From assembly GCA_963965975.1 (NCBI GenBank), contig OZ014419.1, positions 6,156,150 through 6,220,149 on the forward strand: DNA of 64,000 bases. Direction: 5' to 3'. The notes beneath the pieces were generated by a model that saw only the letters and a list, made by a program, of their open reading frames with translations, was not told the DNA's origin and searched no databases. This document shows, piece by piece, positions 27,707 through 53,500 of the stretch. This DNA is from Xestospongia bergquistia. Lineage: Eukaryota; Porifera; Demospongiae; Haplosclerida; Petrosiidae. The position numbers and the translations under genes are program-made. Each line of letters begins with the position of its first letter. Within the stretch, counting starts at the first letter, position 1.

Positions 27707-29372
27707 AGGATCATTTTTAAAAACTTGCATTATATATTATTTAATTTATCACATTATGTGTTATTATAAAAGCTAGCTTATTAAACTTCTTTCATAAAGT
27801 AACATATTACATTACATAGTTAATTACTTATTCTCTTTTTGGCTGTATTTGTTTGTAACTAAACTGAGCTGTTTGTAATTGTTTCACATCTTTTTCAAAC
27901 TATTAATTGACCATTAAGTAGGCTTATTATTATTCTGTTAATACCACAATAACTAAAACTAAAAGGCTTTAAAGATTACTTTTATACAGAAACATATAAC
28001 TTTGTATGAGGTATCTGGTTTTAAAGGTCTTATTTCAAGCACTTTAATGAATAAAGTAGTCATTTTATAGAGCTTAAAAGTAACCTCTCATTTTATTTAC
28101 TGTGATATAATCACTTAATAAAACATAATAAGCAAAGGTCATAATCAGATGAGACCTGTATATTCTAAGTGTAGTCAACTTAAGTTCCTGCTTGGGCAAC
28201 CTTTTTATCCTGTTTCTTAAAGAGATCATATTTGGTTTGTCTTCTGTTAGTAAAAAAGGTCTTAATTATACTTTATGCTGAAGTATGCATACTATATCAT
28301 TATTAATCAATCATTATAAATTATATATAGTATTGTTGTATAGTAATCTGAGTACACTCTATAATAATAGAGAAAAATAGACATTGTGAGCATGGAGGAA
28401 CCACGAAGGCTTTACTATATCCACAAATAAGTATTCCTTCTGAACTCATCATTGTAAAATAATCTTTACTTCTTGTGTAAATGTAGGTAACATAAAAAGT
28501 ACAAAAATTCCTCCCAAAAACATTTTACTGATAGTTTTCTTCTGCTTTGAACTTTTGCTATTTATTTTTTCATTGTTTAACTTACTTTGTATTTTATGGC
28601 TTTATTCATCTATAATGAGTGTTTAAACTTTGTCATTTTATTTCTTTGAATATATCATTAACATATATCTGCTTTTCTTTTTACTCACTCTTCATAATTA
28701 TAATAACATTAGCAATAACTTTAATAATTGATCTAAAATTCATCATTTATTTCATCTCAGTGTTATAATTATTCCCTTCTTTATTCCAACATACATCAAT
28801 TTATGGTTTTTGGTTCATGATTAATGTTCAACATTAACACAATATGAAGGGATTACTGAACACACCCATCACCCATATAATTAAATAATTAAATAACTTG
28901 CTCATGCAGGCTGGCGTCATTAAAATGGTTGTTATATTTTCCTTATAAGGAATTGTTACTATAAGACTTTATATTTCTATTATAGAAGTCACTTATAATA
29001 AATAAAATCTAATAGTCTACCTTCTGAAGAACCCCACCTATTTTGTAGATCATTTTGACAACTGGAAGTACATAAATAAGTTGTTAAATTTACATTGCGA
29101 TAGAGAATAAAAATATTCATGCATTGACTTAACGTCAGACTAGTCTCGCGTAGCCAGCCCCTCCCTCTCGGGAAGGGAGGGGCTGGCTACGCGAGACTAA
29201 CGTCAACTACGTTGTACGCAAAAGATTCTAATTATATTCTCGTTTCCAGAGGCCCACTCGCTTTTTAACCGATTGGGATTTTGAGCACGAGACTAGCAAT
29301 AGATATTTGTACAATCAAGTTAGCTATTAGCCAATCAAATTCGTTTCCGATTACTAGCAGCACTACCTGATT
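27707..29372. other. Intergenic spacer, 1.7 kb
   Basis: Largest gap between genes in the window. It is strongly AT-rich with no ORF or RNA gene that I recognise, apart from the GC-rich foldback at 29137-29196. Confidence 0.65.
29137..29196. repeat. GC-rich perfect foldback (MITE-like)
   Basis: Two 25-bp arms starting AGTCTCGCGTAGCCAGCC pair perfectly around a 7-bp spacer. TAACGTCA occurs just outside both ends. Related sequence occurs at about 46552-46614 and 55345-55390. Confidence 0.85.
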
Positions 29373-32300
29373 ATGGCCATTAATCTTGCCTGTACTACGC
29401 CAACAGTGAGGTGCACACTTCAACTTGAAGGAGTTCCACAACGAAAAGATATCAAACAAGCTCTTGAAGTGTATGACATAGAAGTCGAACGAGTAAAACG
29501 TTTAAAAGATTCGCTGAGAAGCACCATTTTAGTAACTATAAAAGCTAGTGATGAGAGTGAGTATGTACATAATAATATCTGTGCACTCGATAAAATATTG
29601 TGTTCCCACTTTATTTTATTATGTAGTTATATGATGCTTTGTGCCTTATTGTCTAGGTATAGGTAATGCTATTACTATTATATGTAGTAAAACAATATAT
29701 CATGTACTCTATTGTCAGAATTTTTGAATCATTAAAATCTAATAATAGATCCATTTTATTTTAGATCTTCGAAGACTTAAACACCAATTTCCCCTCGTCA
29801 TTGATGATTGCAATGTAAACTACACCAATGAGTGGTATCATAGTTTGGACACACCCTGTTTTATTGTTTCACATGATCTACCTTATAGCTTGAATAGAGA
29901 CAGTTTGGAAATATATTTAGATTGCAACAAAATAAAGATAAAAGCAATCAATGAAGATGATGATGGAAGTACTATCACTGTGGAGTTAGATGACTCTGCA
30001 GGTAAAGAATATACCTAAACATAATAATTTGGCTATTAAATTTGTTTTTATGTAATTGTACATGTATACATGTATTTTGTATAAGATTATTGGTTGTCTG
30101 TAGGTAAACTAATGGATGGTAGGGATCTTGTCTGTTCTTGTTTGTAAAGATTAAATTTTGTATTCTGTACTCTCCAGTTTAGCTAGATGATAGGTGTAAT
30201 ACAATTTCTTATACTAAGAGCCTTGATAACTTTATAATTTCCATATTGATTGGAACTTTATAATGGATCAAATCATATTATAGTCATAGATTTCTGTTAA
30301 CAGATCTTCCATATTTGGTAACAAAGACTCATACTATAAAAGGCCAAACTGTTGTCTTCACAGAAAGACCCACTTCAGACTTGATCTCTAGTCCCTCAGA
30401 TTCAGTGAACATTTATTCATGTACAGAGGATAATGAAAATATTGGACCAATCTCTCTTGGGACTCCAGATGCTTTGAAGATTACTGGAATGCATATACAT
30501 CTAAATGAAGATACAGTTAAGAGTGCTCTAAGGACTTGTTTTAGTCAAAAACCTTATGATTTACAAATTAAGCATTGTGTTGTGGAAGGGGACACTGCCT
30601 ATTTGACCTTTACAGATGAACAAGGTTAATTCACTCTTTATCATATATAATATATGTATTTATAACATAACATTTATAAAAACTTGGCATTCTAATTTCT
30701 ATAATATTTTGAAGTAACATCCATAAAAGTCCTCTATAAATTTGCCAACATAATTATTAAAAATTAATATCAAAGTTAGAGAAATTCACCAAAATTAGAA
30801 TACTGTTATAAAATTTTTGTAATAATCTAATTTTGTGAATTCCTCTAACTTCAGCTAGCCCCCAACAGCAGATACAAACTTTAGGATATGAGATAGTCTT
30901 ATTAGAGATTATTTTCAAATCTATTGAGGTCTGTCTCATATCTGAAACATCCAGTGTATTTTCAGTATGATTCCTTCTAAAAACACAACTTACCGTCTTG
31001 AGACGAACATTGTTATCTAGTATGATCTATAGTCAATTTTGTGAAGTGTCTAATTTAATTGTAATTAATTATTTTGAATAATGAATATTCTAATTTACTT
31101 ACAACCTTAAAATTACTATAAGAAGTCTAATTTGCCAAACTTTTAGAAGTTTTATAGTATATAACTTGCCATACCAATTATTGAAGTGACCCATAACTAA
31201 AATAGGATTAGAGGTCACTTCCTTTGGCATAATGATAGTGCTTTAGTTGCATTTATTGACATTATAAACATAGTTTACAGTCTTAGTAAGCATCATCTCT
31301 GAATTAGATATCTAATTAATCAAATTTTTAGAAACTCTATTTAAAATTAATGATCATGTTATTGGTAACATCTACAGCTACCTTGTATGTTCTTATTATT
31401 TATATTATTTACATTATTTATATTATTTATCAGTCTCTTTTTTAACTAATGGTGTTTATAATATCTAGGAGTGACAAAGGTAATGATTCAGCCACCACCT
31501 CGACTCTGGGGACTTCCTATTGTATGTACATCAGTACCAATAACTGATGTACCTGCCTTCCAAACTCCTCCAAGAACATTTGAAAACCAAAACTGTAAGG
31601 ACTAAATAGATAGAGTATTCAATACAACATAATCATGGTTAGTCTTGTCCCCAGACCTACACACAAACTGAAATAGATATGGTAGATATTCCTTAGCTAG
31701 GACACCAATCAAGTTACCAGATATTTTTCACATGTATGTAAATCTGGGAATGAGACTATGATAACATGTCTCCTGTGTCACAACATTGAATGTTGTTTAA
31801 TAATACAGAGCTATGTGTTATGAAAGCTTTACACAGGTGGTTATATAAACTACATTTATTGCAGCCACCCCATACTTCAATGAATATTATTAAAAACATG
31901 CCCACCTATTGCTAATTGGAGGACAATCAACAATCTAAGAGTATTCTGGTAATGAATACATTCTACAGATAAATTGTTTATTTCTAGACAATGAATAGTA
32001 ATAGTTTAGTAATAGGTTAGTGAATAGTAATGATTTCAGGAAGGGATTTAGGGAGGTGCAATAACAATTAATATTGTAATTGATTTAAGGAAGTAGACAC
32101 TGACAAGAATCTTCTATGATTGTTTAGATACAGTTATAATAAAGCCTGGAAACCTTAATTTTTGTGTGAAAACAAAGTCTATTTTGACAAGTGACCACAC
32201 TGTCTGTACTTTTATAATACTTTCATTATCCTTCTATTAAACCAAATATACTGATACTGATATACTGAAAAATCATTCCAGAAATTGTGTCGATGTGTGC

Positions 32301-35300
32301 AGTGTAAATTGATAGACATACTACACATGGTCCAGAACAATCTTAGCAAGATTTGCATGCAAAACTTCTCTTTACCTTGCTGTACTTATTTTATATCCTT
32401 TCCTTTTTTAGCTCACTCTAATGAAGTTGAGGAGAAGTTTCCAGTAGAAAATGGAAAATGGCAGGTGATAATGAAACAACAACATAGCAAGTATGAAAAA
32501 CTCCAACAATTAGCACGCAAAAAGAAAGTGATTTTGCTTTTGAAAGAGCCAATGAAAGATTCTTATAGTGACAAAATTGTCATTACTCTTAAAGGTGAAG
32601 TTAGATCACTTGACAACATTAAAGGAAGGTTAGAAGAGTTGTTTGATGAGGTTTTAATGAAGACGATCTCACTACAACCTGACCCTGGTCAGTATCAAAT
32701 CATCAGGGAAAACATTGATGCAAAATGTCGAGAATTGGAGTCCACTCACAAAATAGCTATCAAGTATAAGTTTGTGGAGGCAAACTCAACCACTTGGGGT
32801 GACCCTCAAATATCAAAACATTACTCAAATGTTCCATGTTGTCTTATTGAAGCAACATCTCGTGATGGATTGCATGTCACTGTCTACAGTGGAGACTTTA
32901 ACAAGAATGACTGTGATGCCCCTGTAATTTTTATCCCTGATAACGAGATCACAATGACACAGCCAACTGGCTATGAGCATGAAGTACACTCTGGTATGAA
33001 AACAGTCATTTCTTCTAATGGTAATCAGACGTGTTACCATGTTTCGTTGCCTCATTTAACAGATGCTTCGAGACCGCTTGATGTTATGACGAGGGCTCTA
33101 GAACAGTTCTTTAATCATGTCGTCTGTAATGGTAATAAAGAAATCATTATTGCTCCTCCTCCAGTTAACTATCCAGTTGCTGATTTCGCTCAAGCTGTTC
33201 TGAATGTATTAGCAAGTCAATTTGTGCATAGTAATCTTTCTGTCACGATCTTCATTAAAGATACCAAACATAAGCATGTCTTTCTAGAGAAGATGAAAGA
33301 GTTAGGCTATAGTTTTTTCAGTGAGCCGACCACTCTTGTCAACACAACTCAACCTTTACAAAAACATGGAAGTACTAGTAATCTAACGGAGGTTGTCCAA
33401 ATCTCTAAGGGAAATATTTTAGATTTAGAGGTTAGTGTTATTGCAATAGCACCAACACGTTTATATGATGATTATGTAATATGAGTACAGGGGATATATT
33501 TATTACTATATTCTCTGTGACATTTCACCACAGTTAGTATCAGGCAGGACTGGCTATTTAGGAATGGTTTGGGTTGTCCAATGAAATAGATTTGCAAAGA
33601 GCACTGAATATATTTACCCAAAAATGAACAGGTTCTCTCATTTCTTTGTATATACCTAATACTAAATCATCCCTACATTGCTTCCATTTTCAAAGAAAAT
33701 TTTAATGTATGAATCATATCCAATTAGTTAATGCCAGTATCATATCACCATATTCATAGATAATAGAATAGGATTACTATAATTAAAATGGACGAGATAG
33801 CATAACTACACTTGTACATAAATTTATATGGTTGTTTGGGAGGTGTTACAACTTGAGTTTCTTTGTTGATTGTGACAGATTTATATAATGCATATAGAGC
33901 TCTGAATTGTGATATATAGTATGTGTATATATACTAATATATTTTGGTATATACATGCTAAGATTCCTTCTGATATGTTGTGCAAGATCTTGCAAATGTA
34001 AAGTAAAGGAAGTGTCTGTGCACTCTTACAATTTTATCAATTTCTTTTGACCTTTTAGGTTGATGTTATTGTCAATTCTGTCACCTTAACCTTTGATTTA
34101 TCTCCTCAATTAACAAAGATTTGTGGCCAAAAGCTCCTAGATGAAGTTCAAACACACATTAGCACCTTAGGAAAGCTTGAACCTGGTCAAATAGTAGTAA
34201 CATCTGCTTATAATACTAGAGCTAAAGCTATTTATCATGTAGCTCTACCAAAATATGATGATGCAGATTCCATGAGGGTAAGTGGAAATGAGTAAATTTA
34301 TGTATATAGCATATTTGTTGACCAGTTTCAAGGAATTTACTGACTTACTGCATGGTACAGTTGAAACAACTAATAAATGAATTTTTTTCTATACGATACT
34401 ATACTCTGTCTGATTTAAATTTGATGACAGTTTTGAGGAATTTCTATAATACTGATATGAATAAAGTCATCAACCTACTTTAATGGCATGGTCTCATTTG
34501 TAGGTTGTATTGAACTCTCAGTTTCTCACAGTTTTTTCCTTCTTAGTCTCTCCTACTTTGCTCTTTAAGACATTTACCACTATTTCTAAAATTTATTTGC
34601 TTTTAGTGAACACTTATGTGATCATTAGTTAGTAATTTTATGTGACATGTTATGTGGTAGAATACAGTTGACTTAATGCTTTACATGGAATTTCTACTTT
34701 ATGATAATCCTCAGTAGCTAGCACTCTAGCCATTTTAATGTTAAAGTTTAGGAGTTGTAAGACTTACTTAATAGTATAAACCATTTCTTAGGCTTTTCTA
34801 GCTAATACATAGCTTGAGTTATAACACATGACTTAATTGTTAACCTAAAAATAAACAAGTATACCTCTGGACCACTGGTATCTCGATTTTGTTCCTTTTA
34901 TTATCATATACTGATATGTATGTATATGTAACCTTCAGTTGATTTTTCTTTTTTATAGCATTTTAAAGAAGCTATTCAGAACATTCTTAAAAAAATCAAA
35001 GCTAAGGGCATCCAATCTATCGCTATCCCCTGTCTTGGGGCTGCTAACCTTGGTTACCTAACACGTGAGACTACTCCAGTAGTTTTTGACGAAGTAGTGT
35101 CATTTCATGTCAATAATCCAGGCATCATTACATGTTTTCACTTTGTTGTTGACCAAGATAGTGACTTCAAAGTTCTTAGCAATGAATTTAGGAAAAAGAT
35201 AAAGCGACCACCTCGTTCAGAAATGCTTACCGTCCTTCCACGAAAAGTGCCTTTAAAGAAAAATGAAGTCACTTTCAAAATTTATGGCCTTGAGCAAGAG

Positions 35301-37664
35301 ACAATCGACTGTGTTGAGAAAGAACTAAGAGCATTGATCCCTGAAGAGCATACCCTTAATGTTCGTATTTTAAGTCAACTGGCTGCATATCTGCCTTCCA
35401 GGGGTATTGTAACTAAAATTCTTAAAAAGAAAACATTTCAGGAGCTTACACAAGATGCAATTAAGGCCACTGAACTTATGCTACTTAAAGCCTGGTCATG
35501 TCAGCAAGAGCTTAGAATACTTGTTACTGGAAAAACAGGCCAGGGAAAATCTACACTTATCAATGGTATCCTTGGAGCTCAAGTTGCTGCTGAAGGAGCT
35601 GGTGCCAAACGGTGTACTGCAGAAGTTACAGAATATTCTGTGACTATTCAAGATGTTCCTGTAACAGTGTTTGACTCTCCTGGTCTTCAAGATGGGACAG
35701 TAAATGAGGAGGAATACATTCAAGACATGAAAGACAAGTGTAAACATCTCAGTTTAGTTCTTTACTGTACTAAGATGACTAATACTCGTCTGACTGATGC
35801 TGATAAGAATGCAATGCAAAAGCTCACAAAGGCATTTGGAGAAGAGTTCTGGAATTATGCAGTGTTTGTTCTTACATTTGCTAACAAGGAAGATTGTTTT
35901 AGGAAAGATGACAGAGATATTGACACTGCCTCTGATTTGGATGGTCATGATAAAATGTTGCTCAAACAGAGATTTGAACATCGACTGAAGTTATGGAAGG
36001 AGGAACTAAAAGATTTTCTGGTGTCTGTCGTAGGCGTAAGTCCGAGTATTGCTGAAGAAATTCCTGTGGTACCTACTGGAGACTACAGAAAAACTGCTGT
36101 GAATTTCCAGCCTTTGAGCCTTCCTGATCGAGACAATTGGTTTATCTGGTTTTGGGATGCCTGTTGTTTAAGAGTAAAGGACACAAAGCTATTTCTTCAG
36201 GTTAACTATAATCGTATGGTAGCAGTTAAAGATAAAACACAGGTGAGACAAAAGTAATATATGTGTTATAATATTGTTTTTTTTCTTTATTATTTAGAAC
36301 TTGTATGGAATCAAGAAACCCACACCAGCAACACAGGTTTGCTTAATGACCTTTTATTGTAAAACTTATAGCACAGTAACAAAACCACATTTCTATTAGC
36401 TATAGTGTCCTTTATGCATTGTACAACAATAAATACAGAGATAATAAATGTTTTGAAGAGGCTGATATCACAGTAAAACACTGATGTGTTGAAGATTGGA
36501 AAATTGATAAAAAGTTTTGAACAAATATAGAATGAAGTCAACTAGAAGCTTTGAAACATGATTACATATAGTGCTATCAAATATTCATACAAAATAATCA
36601 TGAGATGTGACAACTGAAACAAAAACATCTCAACTAGACCAAAGTAAGAATGGTATCAATGACAATCCCTAAATAGAAGCCTCAAAGGAAGGGCAATTGA
36701 CAAATTGTCATGATAGTAAATTAGTAACAATGACAGTGTAGCAATACTGGTTTAATATCTTAGTGTATAACCAATATGTAGAGATTTTCATACTACATTT
36801 TACACTACCCCTTTGACACAGTATGTCATGCTGTTTGCTCAGGCTATTATTGTTATGAACCATAATTTAAAAGTAAATAATAACATCTAAATTATTAGGA
36901 TTGTCTTTATTTGTCTATGTTGTTAGGAAGAGCCTGGTAATAGTTCAACATCACCTCTGCTACCACCATTTGAGTCAGAAGAACCCATTCCTTTTCTACC
37001 ACCATTTGAGTCAGAAGAACCCACTCCTTTTCTACCACCATTTGAGTCAGAAGAACCCACTCCTTTTCTACCACCAATTGAGTTGGGAGAACCCACTCCC
37101 TCTCTACTGCCAATTGCGTTGGAAGAACCCACTCTTTCACTATCACCAATTGAGTCAGAAGAATCTACTCCTTCTCTACCACCAATAAATGACACAGAAG
37201 ATGATGAGATCAATAAAGGTGTAACAGGTAAAGAAAGTAATATTAAAAGCAAAAGAGATGATGACAAAGAAAGTGGTATCACTGTGGAGAGCAAAGACAG
37301 TATGGAAGTTGAACAAGTCATCAAAAATGGGAAAGAAGTTCAGATGGAGAGAGAAGGAAATACAAAATTAGATACTACAAAACAAGATGATAATAATATA
37401 AGTAAAGATAACACTGCTAGTAAACTTAATGTTCCTACTAGATCTACTCAGATAGAAGATACAAAAGAAGAGCCTTTGGAACCTGAGCAAGATCACCATC
37501 CTTCTAATCAGGAGATTCCTATTGATGATGAACGTGCGAGAACAATATTGGGAAGAATACTTGGAAGAATTATTGGTAAAAAAGCTGCTTCTTATGTTGA
37601 TGAAGTTATAAGGTATATTGGTGAGCCTGGAAGGTGGTTTCTTAGACTGATAAAGAAGAAATGA
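29373..37664 (+). CDS. PARP14-like macro-domain protein fused to an AIG1/GIMAP-type GTPase
   Basis: Nine exons join in frame to about 1,388 aa: 29373-29556, 29765-30001, 30304-30624, 31469-31594, 32412-33430, 34059-34277, 34959-36242, 36298-36336, 36927-37664. The N-terminal part (about 1-290) has RRM-like segments (VRCTLQLEGVPQ, LKITGMHIHLNEDTVKSALR) as in PARP14-type proteins. Two macro-like domains follow: about 436-590 (GLHVTVYSGDFNKNDCDAPV) and about 615-770 (GNILDLEVDVIVNS, IPCLGAANLGYL). A P-loop GTPase (about 890-1100) has G1 TGKTGQGKST, G3 DSPGLQD and TFANKED as the likely G4/NKxD region, resembling AIG1/GIMAP. Seven 12-residue repeats (LPPFESEEPTPF) precede an acidic linker and a cationic helical end. 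No WWE or PARP catalytic domain is present. The family context is ADP-ribose signalling and immune GTPases; the actual role is unknown. Confidence 0.85.
30625..32411 (+). other. Introns 3-4 of the macro-AIG1 gene
   Basis: Two AT-rich introns (30625-31468 and 31595-32411) flank a 126-nt exon. The ORF continuing upstream of 32412 is intronic: TTTTTTAG at 32404-32411 is the acceptor. No embedded gene was seen. Confidence 0.65.
33431..34958 (+). other. Introns 5-6 of the macro-AIG1 gene
   Basis: Introns 33431-34058 and 34278-34958 split the second macro-like domain. The frame stays open briefly past the donor at 33431 but loses homology. Nothing else recognised. Confidence 0.65.
36337..36926 (+). 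other. Intron 8 of the macro-AIG1 gene
   Basis: 590-bp intron before the repeat-bearing last exon; AT-rich, no other feature seen. Confidence 0.6.
36960..37195 (+). repeat. 36-bp coding tandem repeat, 7 units
   Basis: Each unit encodes LPPFESEEPTPF or a variant (LPPIELGEPTPS, LSPIESEESTPS). The first three units are nearly identical in DNA and later ones decay, so expansion is recent at the 5' side. Confidence 0.9.
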
Positions 37665-50539: not shown

Positions 50540-53500
50540 GTCTCTCTCTCTCTCTCTGTCTCTCTCTCTCTCTGTCTCTCTCTCTCTCTCTGTCTCTCTC
50601 TCTCTCTCTCTGTGTCTCTCTCTCCTCTTCTCTCTCTCTCTTAGGGTCGAATACCATCTTTAGTTTGGATGGACAGTGTTACTGGTACATTTCTATTGAG
50701 GAGTGCTCAACCACTTCCAGGCTTAGCTGATAAAGTATGACATTATATTATTATTAATCTACCATACAATTTTGTAGCATTCGCATGAAGATGAAACACT
50801 TATAAAGTATGCTATGGTTACATGTCCCAGTGAAAGTGGTCTGACAATATTTGATGCACGTTCTTCATCAGCTGCTACTGGAAACCGAATAATGGTTTGT
50901 TAATATATATCTTCTATCTATAGTTCTATCTCTCACATTATATCTTCTATCAATAGTTCTATCTCTCACATTATATCTTCTATCAATAGTTCTATCTCTC
51001 ACATTATATCTTCTATCAATAGTTCTATCTCTCACATTATATCTTCTATCAATAGTTCTATCTCTCACATTATATCTTCTATCAATAGTTCTATCTCTCA
51101 CATTATATCTTCTATCAATAGTTCTATCTCTCACATTATATCTTCTATCTATAGTTCTATCTCTCACATTATATCTTCTATCTATAGTTCTATCTCTCAC
51201 ATTATATCTTCTATCAATAGTTCTATCTCTCACATTATATCTTCTATCAATAGTTCTATCTCTCACATTATATCTTCTATCAATAGTTCTATCTCTCACA
51301 TTTTATCGTCAATCATGTATCCTCCATCAATGCTAACATTAATCATAATTTCTCAATTTTAATGTTAAATTTAACCATGTGTCCATAAGTCTTCCATGCA
51401 TGCATTGATCCTTTATATGTGTCCATTTTTTAGGGTAAAGGAACAGAGGATGTCTCACGTTACAATGGATGCAAACTTATGTATTTAGACATTCCTAATA
51501 TACATACTGTCAGAGATAGCTATGATGGAGTTAAGACATTAGCTTTATCCACCAATAGTTCAAAATGGCTCTCAACTCTTGAAAACACACAATGGCTGCA
51601 GTATATTAGCTTAATATTGAGAGTAAGATATTAATGGCTACCTAAACTCAATGAAATAACATCATGTATGTTCATTTATAGTTGATATAATGTATTTATT
51701 TATTTAAGTCTTCTGTAGTTGGTAAGTTAAAGTATTGTTAATTCCTTGTTGTTTTTATTATTAATTTTTATGATATTTATTAGTTGGTGTTTTTGATGAT
51801 AATCAGTTATTATAATACCAAATACTGTCTATTTTTGTTTGCTTTTATTATTATAGGGTAGTTCTATTATAGCACGATATATTAAACTGCAGAATGGTAA
51901 CGCTTTGGTCCACTGCAGTGATGGATGGGATCGTACTGCTCAACTTACCTCACTAGCACAACTCATGATGGATCCTCACTATAGAACTATTGATGGTTTT
52001 ATAGTAAGAGATAAGGTATTCACTGATGAAATTATACTCTCTTTTCTCTCTCTAAGACTCTCATTTCTAAAGAATGGTTAGCTTATGGACACAAGTTTCA
52101 TGAGAGACTAGGAGAACCACTTCATCCAAATGAACGTTCTCCAATATTTTTTCAATTCCTCGACTGTGTTCATCAGGTTTCACTTATCCCTCATATACCA
52201 ATATCTTACTAACTCTCACTCTATAGATAATGAACCAATATCCAAATGCCTTTGAATTTAAGATGTCCCTTCTTCTGTTCATAGCAGAACAGCTGAACAC
52301 TGCATGGTAGGAGCTAATGAATACATCAAATGACATTATGTTAACATTAGGTTTGGTACCTTTCTCTACAATTGTCATCGTGAAAGAATTGAGAACAGTA
52401 TTTTTACTGATACACTACCAATATCGACTCATATCACTGCTATGAAAGATAACTACCTCAACCATAGATACAAGGAGACCAAAGAAGTAAGCCAAATGAC
52501 ATCTAGCTATTATTATGTGTGAGTCTTTCTTAGCTGTTGACACCATCCTGGACTATTCGTCGTTTGAGACTTTGGGAGGAATATTTTTTGACATGGGATG
52601 GTACATCCATTGCACAAGTTACTCCGATGGAATTTGACATTGGTGGACCTACAACAAATCCTGAAGGAAACATTGCATTTAGTCAAGTAAAATATGACTC
52701 TACCATACTTTTATGTATCGTAATAATGGAATAGTACTTGTTAATCAGCTTACATTAGTGAAACCTCTTTGTAGCTAATATCAATTATAATTGGTTGTTA
52801 CAAACTAGCCTTAGTATGGGGATGTCCTCAATATGAAGTTATTAAAGTATTAGTATGGGGATGTCCTCAATATGAAATTATTAAAGTATTAGTATGGTAA
52901 TGTCCTCAATATAAAGTTATTAAAGTGTTAGTATAGTAATAAATCAAGAATCATAATACAGAGAATATCCAACAGTGGTTTCACTGTAGATATATAACTT
53001 AGTATTTTAATTCATTTATTCTTAATATAGTAGTGCATTGTGTTAACAGTTCATTTATCATTTAGTTTCCAGCAGATCATATCAGTTCTGAGACCGTAGT
53101 CTGGGTATCTGATGACAAAGCTAAAGTATGTTTACTATGTCATCAAAAGTTTGCCATACACAGAAGAAAAGTAAGTCAAAATATACTTATTAATCTCATT
53201 GTGTACTTCACTTTCTCCATGTGTGTAGCATCATTGTAGGTAAGTATCTCTCTCTCTCCCATTGCTGTCTGAACTGATGTTCTTTGATGTAGGAATTGTG
53301 GTCATATATTTTGTGCTGATTGTTCTCATAACAAAGCTGTACTTCCTTCACTGGGTTATTTAGAGCCAGTACGAGTGTGTGATGAATGTTTCAGACTATT
53401 ATCGTCAACTCAGATCTCACCTCATAACATCCAAGAGTACAGTGATGTAAGTACATGTGCAGTTATTATAGTTATATAGAGTACAGTGATATAAGTACAT

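Follow-up and report, generated by a model that had tools for sequence, protein, structure and literature searches.

A predicted sponge gene joins a PARP14-like macro-domain front to an AIG1/Toc34-type GTPase

Intracellular immunity includes two arms, PARP14-family proteins and GIMAP/IRG GTPases, that are usually studied apart. A gene of the sponge Xestospongia bergquistia raises the question whether the two have been combined in a single chain, where the parts of such a chain came from, and what it might do. The gene lies on the forward strand of a 64,000-nucleotide stretch of contig OZ014419.1 (assembly GCA_963965975.1, positions 6,156,150 to 6,220,149), hereafter called the window. It is predicted to span 29373..37664, from an ATG at 29373 to a stop codon at 37662-37664, in nine exons. 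Each of the eight introns begins with GT and ends with AG, and the 4167-base spliced coding sequence yields a product of 1388 residues with a single, terminal stop. An earlier note on this DNA, which described one gene with a continuous frame over nine exons, thus had its coordinates and extent right.

The answer to the first part of the question lies in exon 7 (34959..36242). This exon encodes the C-terminal half of a macro domain, a KH-like linker and a GTPase without interruption, as a 432-codon open frame that runs from inside the macro domain through the linker into the GTPase. Because exon 7 alone contains all three, the macro-GTPase fusion is independent of splice prediction and exon joining. 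The macro and AIG1 domains that the earlier note had assigned both score above curated Pfam cut-offs. Judged from the sequence, the fusion architecture is real and well supported, and it is assembled from known parts.

A second fused copy with the same domain order was found on contig C13 (L039 4811-9713 and L043 964-1119) by tblastn of the product against the fetched loci. Its fused exon (L039 8478-9713) matches window residues 700-1127 in one piece at 58% identity. Elsewhere, the two copies share 37% identity over residues 296-589, 54% over residues 628-694 and 39% over the tail (residues 1334-1386). The ratio of nonsynonymous to synonymous substitution rates (dN/dS) between the two copies of exon 7 is 0.33 overall (409 codons), with 0.50 in the macro half, 0.53 in the linker and 0.22 in the GTPase; since dS is 0.8-1.0, these values are rough. 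A pseudogene was ruled out by the open frame over nine exons together with dN/dS below one. In the 146-Mb genome, among at least 52 AIG1 and at least 43 Macro stretches, the only AIG1-Macro pairs that start 5 kb or less apart belong to the two fused genes and, next to the one on C13, to a short AIG1 fragment. These domain searches were run exon by exon, give minimum counts and miss degenerate domains; paralogues were drawn from the domain-family searches and the fetched loci.

The GTPase domain (35463..36242) is of the AIG1/Toc34 type. Pfam AIG1 matches residues 887-1011 (E 6.5e-20, 71.8 bits against a cut-off of 27), over profile positions 1-127 of 212 only. The domain contains a P-loop, GKTGQGKST (35529-35555), a DSPG motif (35673-35684), a putative arginine finger, R979 (35787-35789), and TFAN at the G4 position (35874-35885). 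In an alignment of nine of the 14 GTPase copies used for the final tree, GKTGQGKS, the switch-region Thr, DSPG, the Arg and TFAN are invariant (9/9). The segment TRLTDADK aligns with GRYTEEEH of GIMAP4, a conserved box between G3 and G4, and its Arg is invariant in all nine. The G4 motif of GIMAPs is TRxD; every one of the nine aligned copies reads TFAN. Among PDB matches of the G domain, plant Toc33 (45.7 bits) and GIMAP4 (44.9 bits) score about equally. The best NCBIfam match is Toc34/Toc86, with TIGR00991 (Toc34 family) at 51.6 bits, far below its cut-off of 421.55. The AIG1/GIMAP-like label of the earlier note therefore holds in that AIG1 passes its Pfam cut-off, with the caveat that the domain is equally close to plant Toc33/34 and has TFAN as its G4. 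The Toc33 residue aligned with R979, at chain position 130, is Arg in 3bb4, whereas 2j3e and 3def, two entries that we take to be designed mutants, have Ala there. The IRG profile IIGP reaches 29.4 bits (cut-off 24), but over positions 33-118 of 375 only and not over most of the profile. No death-fold or repeat domain is present in the Pfam list for the product. With the nine-copy alignment as query, no relative was confirmed among 68 and 107 pattern matches in prokaryote and viral contig collections, a result with little bearing on animals. In one account of Toc34, the Arg corresponding to R979 is required for stable dimers (PMC12973003), and R-fingers are reported for AIG1/GIMAP proteins, treated there as paraseptins (PMC11238149).

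Of the two macro-like domains claimed by the earlier note, the second is clear and the first is degenerate. Macro domain 2 (approximately residues 625-788; 33416..35216, spliced from 33416-33430, 34059-34277 and 34959-35216) draws on exons 5 and 6, which have canonical boundaries (32412-33430 and 34059-34277), and on exon 7. It matches Pfam Macro at residues 644-742 (E 1.5e-15, 57.6 bits against a cut-off of 22) and contains the phosphate loop GAANLGY (35037-35057). In the PDB search, the PARP14 entry 3vfq ranks first (E 2.1e-17, mainly its second stretch), followed by 5o2d and 3q71 (both PARP14) and by PARP9 5ail. The entries 5o2d and 3q71 and the second stretch of 3vfq we take to be PARP14 macrodomain 2 (MD2), and no hydrolase-type macro domain resembling macrodomain 1 (MD1) stood among these best matches. 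Macro 2 thus appears closest to the reader type of PARP14-MD2 and PARP9-MD2, which is non-hydrolysing. As described for human PARP14, MD2 and MD3 are ADP-ribose readers and MD1 is an eraser (PMC10499325), and ADP-ribose binding rather than hydrolysis is therefore predicted for an MD2-type macro domain.

Macro domain 1 (32831..33358, residues 430-605) has no macro match in Pfam, NCBIfam or PDB. It was recognised solely through profile comparison, with an hhalign probability of 97% and an hmmsearch E value of 1.7e-6 against a frame of this genome that bears a macro domain. In blastp against 759 open frames of the fetched loci, which also served for the linker, front and tail comparisons below, its only strong match is the other fused copy (40%, E 9.5e-30; the next match has an E value of 0.04). 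That a degenerate domain matches strongly only its counterpart in the other fused copy favours a single fusion event. The first part of exon 5 (32412..32830, residues 290-429) is shared with L038, a macro-macro-linker gene (41%, E 1.7e-10), and with the C13 fused copy (37.5%, E 6.3e-15). Exons 1-4 (29373-29556, 29765-30001, 30304-30624 and 31469-31594) encode the N-terminal RRM-like region, residues 1-290. The RRM-like segments seen by the earlier note come down to one match, RRM_PARP14_3 at residues 97-157 (E 0.0032, 18.0 bits), which is below the Pfam cut-off of 24, and there is no RRM among the PDB matches of the product; support for them is weak.

What stands behind the macro domains in related genes? 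The macro domains nearest to macro 2 are those of L036/L052 (C13, 2.65 Mb; 64% over 159 positions) and L038 (C13, 2.00 Mb; 60%), and macro loci other than these and the C13 fused copy share no more than about 37% with it in blastp stretches of 40 residues or longer. In the macro tree, the window gene, the C13 fused copy, L036 and L038 form one clade at 100/100. L036 encodes, in one frame, a macro domain, a second macro domain, a sub-threshold KH match and a WWE domain, and the next open frame on the same strand contains a partial PARP (Macro E 5.6e-20, WWE E 1.1e-7, PARP E 3.3e-7 at positions 10-70 of 199). The KH-like linker of the window gene (35214..35348, residues 788-832) is 47% identical over 47 aa to the segment that precedes WWE in L036/L052 (E 3.5e-7) and 56% identical over 32 aa to the same segment of L038 (E 1.2e-5). 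The KH match of L036, KH_PARP14_8, lies outside the segment homologous to the linker. Because the macro domain and the linker match L036 and L038, and the part before the macro domains matches L038, the front half of the product is PARP14-like up to about residue 832. L036 shares the macro domain and linker and then runs into macro, WWE and partial PARP, so the GTPase occupies the WWE-PARP position, which bears out the earlier description of a GTPase in place of the PARP domain. Neither WWE nor PARP (ART) has a Pfam match in the product, and none of the at least 43 WWE and at least 43 PARP stretches listed for the genome falls in the window; a canonical PARP14 was ruled out on this absence. 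L038 (C13:1.996 Mb) is close kin of L036 with the order macro, macro, linker. No WWE or PARP was found near it among the genome stretches listed, and L038 itself may be truncated or have a different C-terminus.

The fusion breakpoint falls between residues 832 and ~871 (35349-35463), and the relatives of the part behind it are of a different kind. Stand-alone GTPase genes at C13:4692-4720 kb and C2:5756-5825 kb form a tandem family, and their full or near-full copies are 62-72% identical to the window GTPase. The likeness extends into exon 9 (36927..37664), which encodes an acidic Pro-rich repeat, a low-complexity linker and a conserved tail (37515-37661, residues 1340-1388). The repeat is a 36-bp coding tandem repeat of 6.3 copies (36960-37186) that forms a spacer between GTPase and tail. 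The last exons of the stand-alone genes end in a tail with R..G and then P..WF..L.K, homologous to that of the window (E 4e-11 to 3e-4, a range that includes one match to the C13 fused copy), and this pattern is kept in 8/8 aligned tails. Because these tails are homologous, GTPase, linker and tail seem to have been acquired as one unit. Over its last ~34 residues the tail is amphipathic: 17/36 tail windows have a moment above 0.45, the top 2.4% of the 18-residue windows of the protein. No stretch of the product reaches transmembrane hydropathy, the highest 19-residue value being 1.56, at residue 1055 and away from the C-terminus, against a usual limit of 1.6. Septins likewise bear amphipathic helices (PMC11238149), and the amphipathic basic tail is possibly membrane-seeking. 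On C2, three similar segments (L044-L046, C2:5752000-5829999) each contain one GTPase of the window family along with other common open frames, and look like recent segmental duplications. A separate cluster of AIG1 genes at C7:1494998-1515570 has longer profile matches (up to 2-206) and is far from the window GTPase family.

Based on these observations, we propose that the chimera works as an ADP-ribose-directed GTPase scaffold, encoded by a gene fused from a PARP14-like front and a paraseptin GTPase, a reading for and against which we see the chances as about evenly balanced. In this proposal, a PARP14-like gene would have contributed its nucleic-acid- and ADP-ribose-binding front and the local paraseptin (AIG1/Toc34-like) family a GTPase-plus-tail gene, and the resulting chimeric gene was most likely duplicated afterwards. 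Macro 2 would dock on mono-ADP-ribosylated targets produced by the PARP14-like enzymes of the same genome. Upon clustering or GTP loading, the G domains would form arginine-finger dimers, and the amphipathic basic tail would keep the assembly on a membrane. A module that writes ADP-ribose would thereby have been exchanged for one that assembles on it. What the sequence shows is the fusion itself, relatives of both parents, intact main G motifs, a reader-type macro domain, a conserved tail and dN/dS below one; ADP-ribose binding, GTP-dependent dimerisation, membrane contact and a role in defence are what we infer. Taken further, the protein could represent a new class among cell-autonomous defence proteins: a paraseptin GTPase gated by ADP-ribose. 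It would recognise surfaces that PARP14-type enzymes have marked and polymerise on membranes, with the reader role of PARP9/PARP14 and the coat-forming role of IRG/GIMAP in one chain, arisen by a writer-for-GTPase exchange at the macro-WWE linker. This extension is tentative, and we regard it as possible rather than probable.

Several points weigh against the proposed scaffold. The first concerns its origin. In the macro tree the two fused copies pair at 61/86 only, and the macro domain of the window gene shares more with L036 (64%) and L038 (60%) than with its fused counterpart (45%); the C13 fused macro in turn is 51% identical to the L036/L038 macros. The first GTPase tree had 20 rows from the fetched loci, to which most other AIG1 stretches of the genome do not belong; rows shorter than ~150 residues, such as L051 on C1 and a partial GTPase at C13:4720063, were excluded. 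The tree was rebuilt with 14/20 rows owing to long branches, leaving out the six more distant ones. In the rebuilt tree the two fused GTPases group together at 85/82, which is not decisive. A single fusion event is thus not firmly supported by these trees. The macro tree makes one fusion with later duplication less secure but leaves the main reading unaffected. The second point concerns ligand binding. Macro 2 has KGN at the position where an Asp usually contacts adenine, its first loop is shortened, and macro 2 of the C13 copy is without the GAANLGY phosphate loop, while the GTPase of that copy remains 74% identical. For these reasons ADP-ribose binding by macro 2 may be weak, or may have been lost in the C13 copy, and the two fused copies may differ in this respect. 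Constraint is strongest in the GTPase and only moderate, at dN/dS of about 0.5, in the macro half and linker. An AlphaFold model of exon 7 made without an alignment has a mean predicted local distance difference test (pLDDT) score of 39 and is unusable, and a GTPase-only transcript may begin within intron 6. Finally, dimers of Toc34 are described as favoured by GDP and loosened under GTP-like conditions (PMC12973003), which disfavours a simple GTP-driven dimer.

The rival that survives best is that the macro domain and linker are a decaying relic, and that the product is a member of the GTPase family with an N-terminal arm for protein interaction or nucleic-acid binding and no recognition of ADP-ribose. 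Macro 1 is degenerate, the C13 copy is without the phosphate loop, and the end branches of the fused macros are long (0.45 and 0.86, against 0.03-0.09 in L036/L038), but macro 2 of the window gene retains GAANLGY and scores 57.6 bits against a Pfam cut-off of 22. Similarly, dN/dS is higher in the macro half and linker (0.50-0.53) than in the GTPase (0.22), yet it stays below one in every part measured, and all nine exons are open. We consider this explanation unlikely.

A different use of the front would make the product a nucleic-acid sensor, in which the RRM/KH-like part binds foreign RNA, the GTPase sets a response threshold in the manner of an NLR switch, and macro 2 is only autoregulatory. 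The PARP14-like front, with its weak RRM match and KH-like linker, is compatible with such a role, but the RRM match is sub-threshold and finds no counterpart among the PDB matches. In conflict systems, GTPases of the septin/GIMAP-like kind are reported to serve as switches or effectors (PMC8195603, PMC7159879), but the Pfam list for the product contains no death-fold or repeat domain. On balance, we find the sensor improbable. That a macro-protein gene and a neighbouring GTPase gene were misjoined across introns is hardly credible and was rejected: the gene was predicted from sequence alone and stand-alone copies of the same GTPase occur, but the macro C-half, linker and GTPase share one exon and one open frame, and C13 carries this fused exon a second time.

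Other features of the window and genome are set down here separately. A near-perfect hairpin at 29141-29199 precedes the start codon by ~170 bp. Allowing at most one mismatch, the genome contains 126 occurrences of its 21-base arm (69 on the plus and 57 on the minus strand), and the reversed pattern, used as a control, occurs 0 times. Among 100 places listed there are several inverted pairs ~300-1000 bases apart, the spacing of ends like those of miniature inverted-repeat transposable elements (MITEs), and others are adjacent pairs as in the window. A long minisatellite at 50868-51362 is open in several frames on both strands, with repeats for example on the minus strand, and is probably not a gene. 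Elsewhere in the genome is a tandem cluster of C1 peptidases, which was considered for silicatein, a sponge marker; in the single stretch examined it has CGSCWAF and is cathepsin-like.

The presence of the chimera and of relatives of both parents in one genome offers a testable link from ADP-ribose marking to GTPase assembly. A breakpoint that can be traced marks where a writer domain gave way to an assembly domain, and the prediction is that the PARP14-type enzymes and the fused GTPase act in one pathway. The architecture suggests a new route from an ADP-ribose signal to protein assembly.

How does this protein compare with known systems? No macro-AIG1 chain was found in the portions of the open-access literature searched, and the earlier note knew of no described family with the order RRM, macro, GTPase. 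The nearest account is a survey of TRADD-N proteins in the oyster C. virginica, which have C-terminal PARP14-like modules (KH, RRM, macro, ART) or AIG-GTPases (PMC8195603). The toolbox is the same, but in the passages of that survey that treat them the two kinds of module belong to separate protein sets, and no macro-AIG chain is described. Biomphalaria is reported to have 19 AIG architectures; the partners named for them include death domains, kinases, ARM and Hint, but no macro domain (PMC7053062). Within sponges, GIMAP/IAN genes are reported as not found in Amphimedon and as present in D. avara (PMC7053062, PMC11229196), and six PARP14-like proteins are reported for Amphimedon, all of which have a macrodomain and some a WWE or RRM as well (PMC4245714).

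The product resembles GIMAP/IAN proteins in its AIG1 domain above the cut-off, its conserved box with Arg and its tandem family, and differs from them in the TFAN of its G4 and in the added macro front. Toc34/Toc33, also a paraseptin, provides the best PDB and NCBIfam match and an Arg finger aligned at Toc33 position 130, but the score is far below the NCBIfam cut-off, and in place of the C-terminal transmembrane anchor the window product has an amphipathic tail. Likeness to PARP14/PARP9 (BAL) lies in the macro domains, with an MD2-type macro 2, in a linker shared with a PARP14-like gene of the same genome, and possibly in the RRM/KH-like front, whose RRM match is sub-threshold. In contrast to PARP14/PARP9, macro 1 is degenerate; the second macro domain of L036/L038 is absent from the window product; and where WWE and ART would stand, there is a GTPase followed by a tail.

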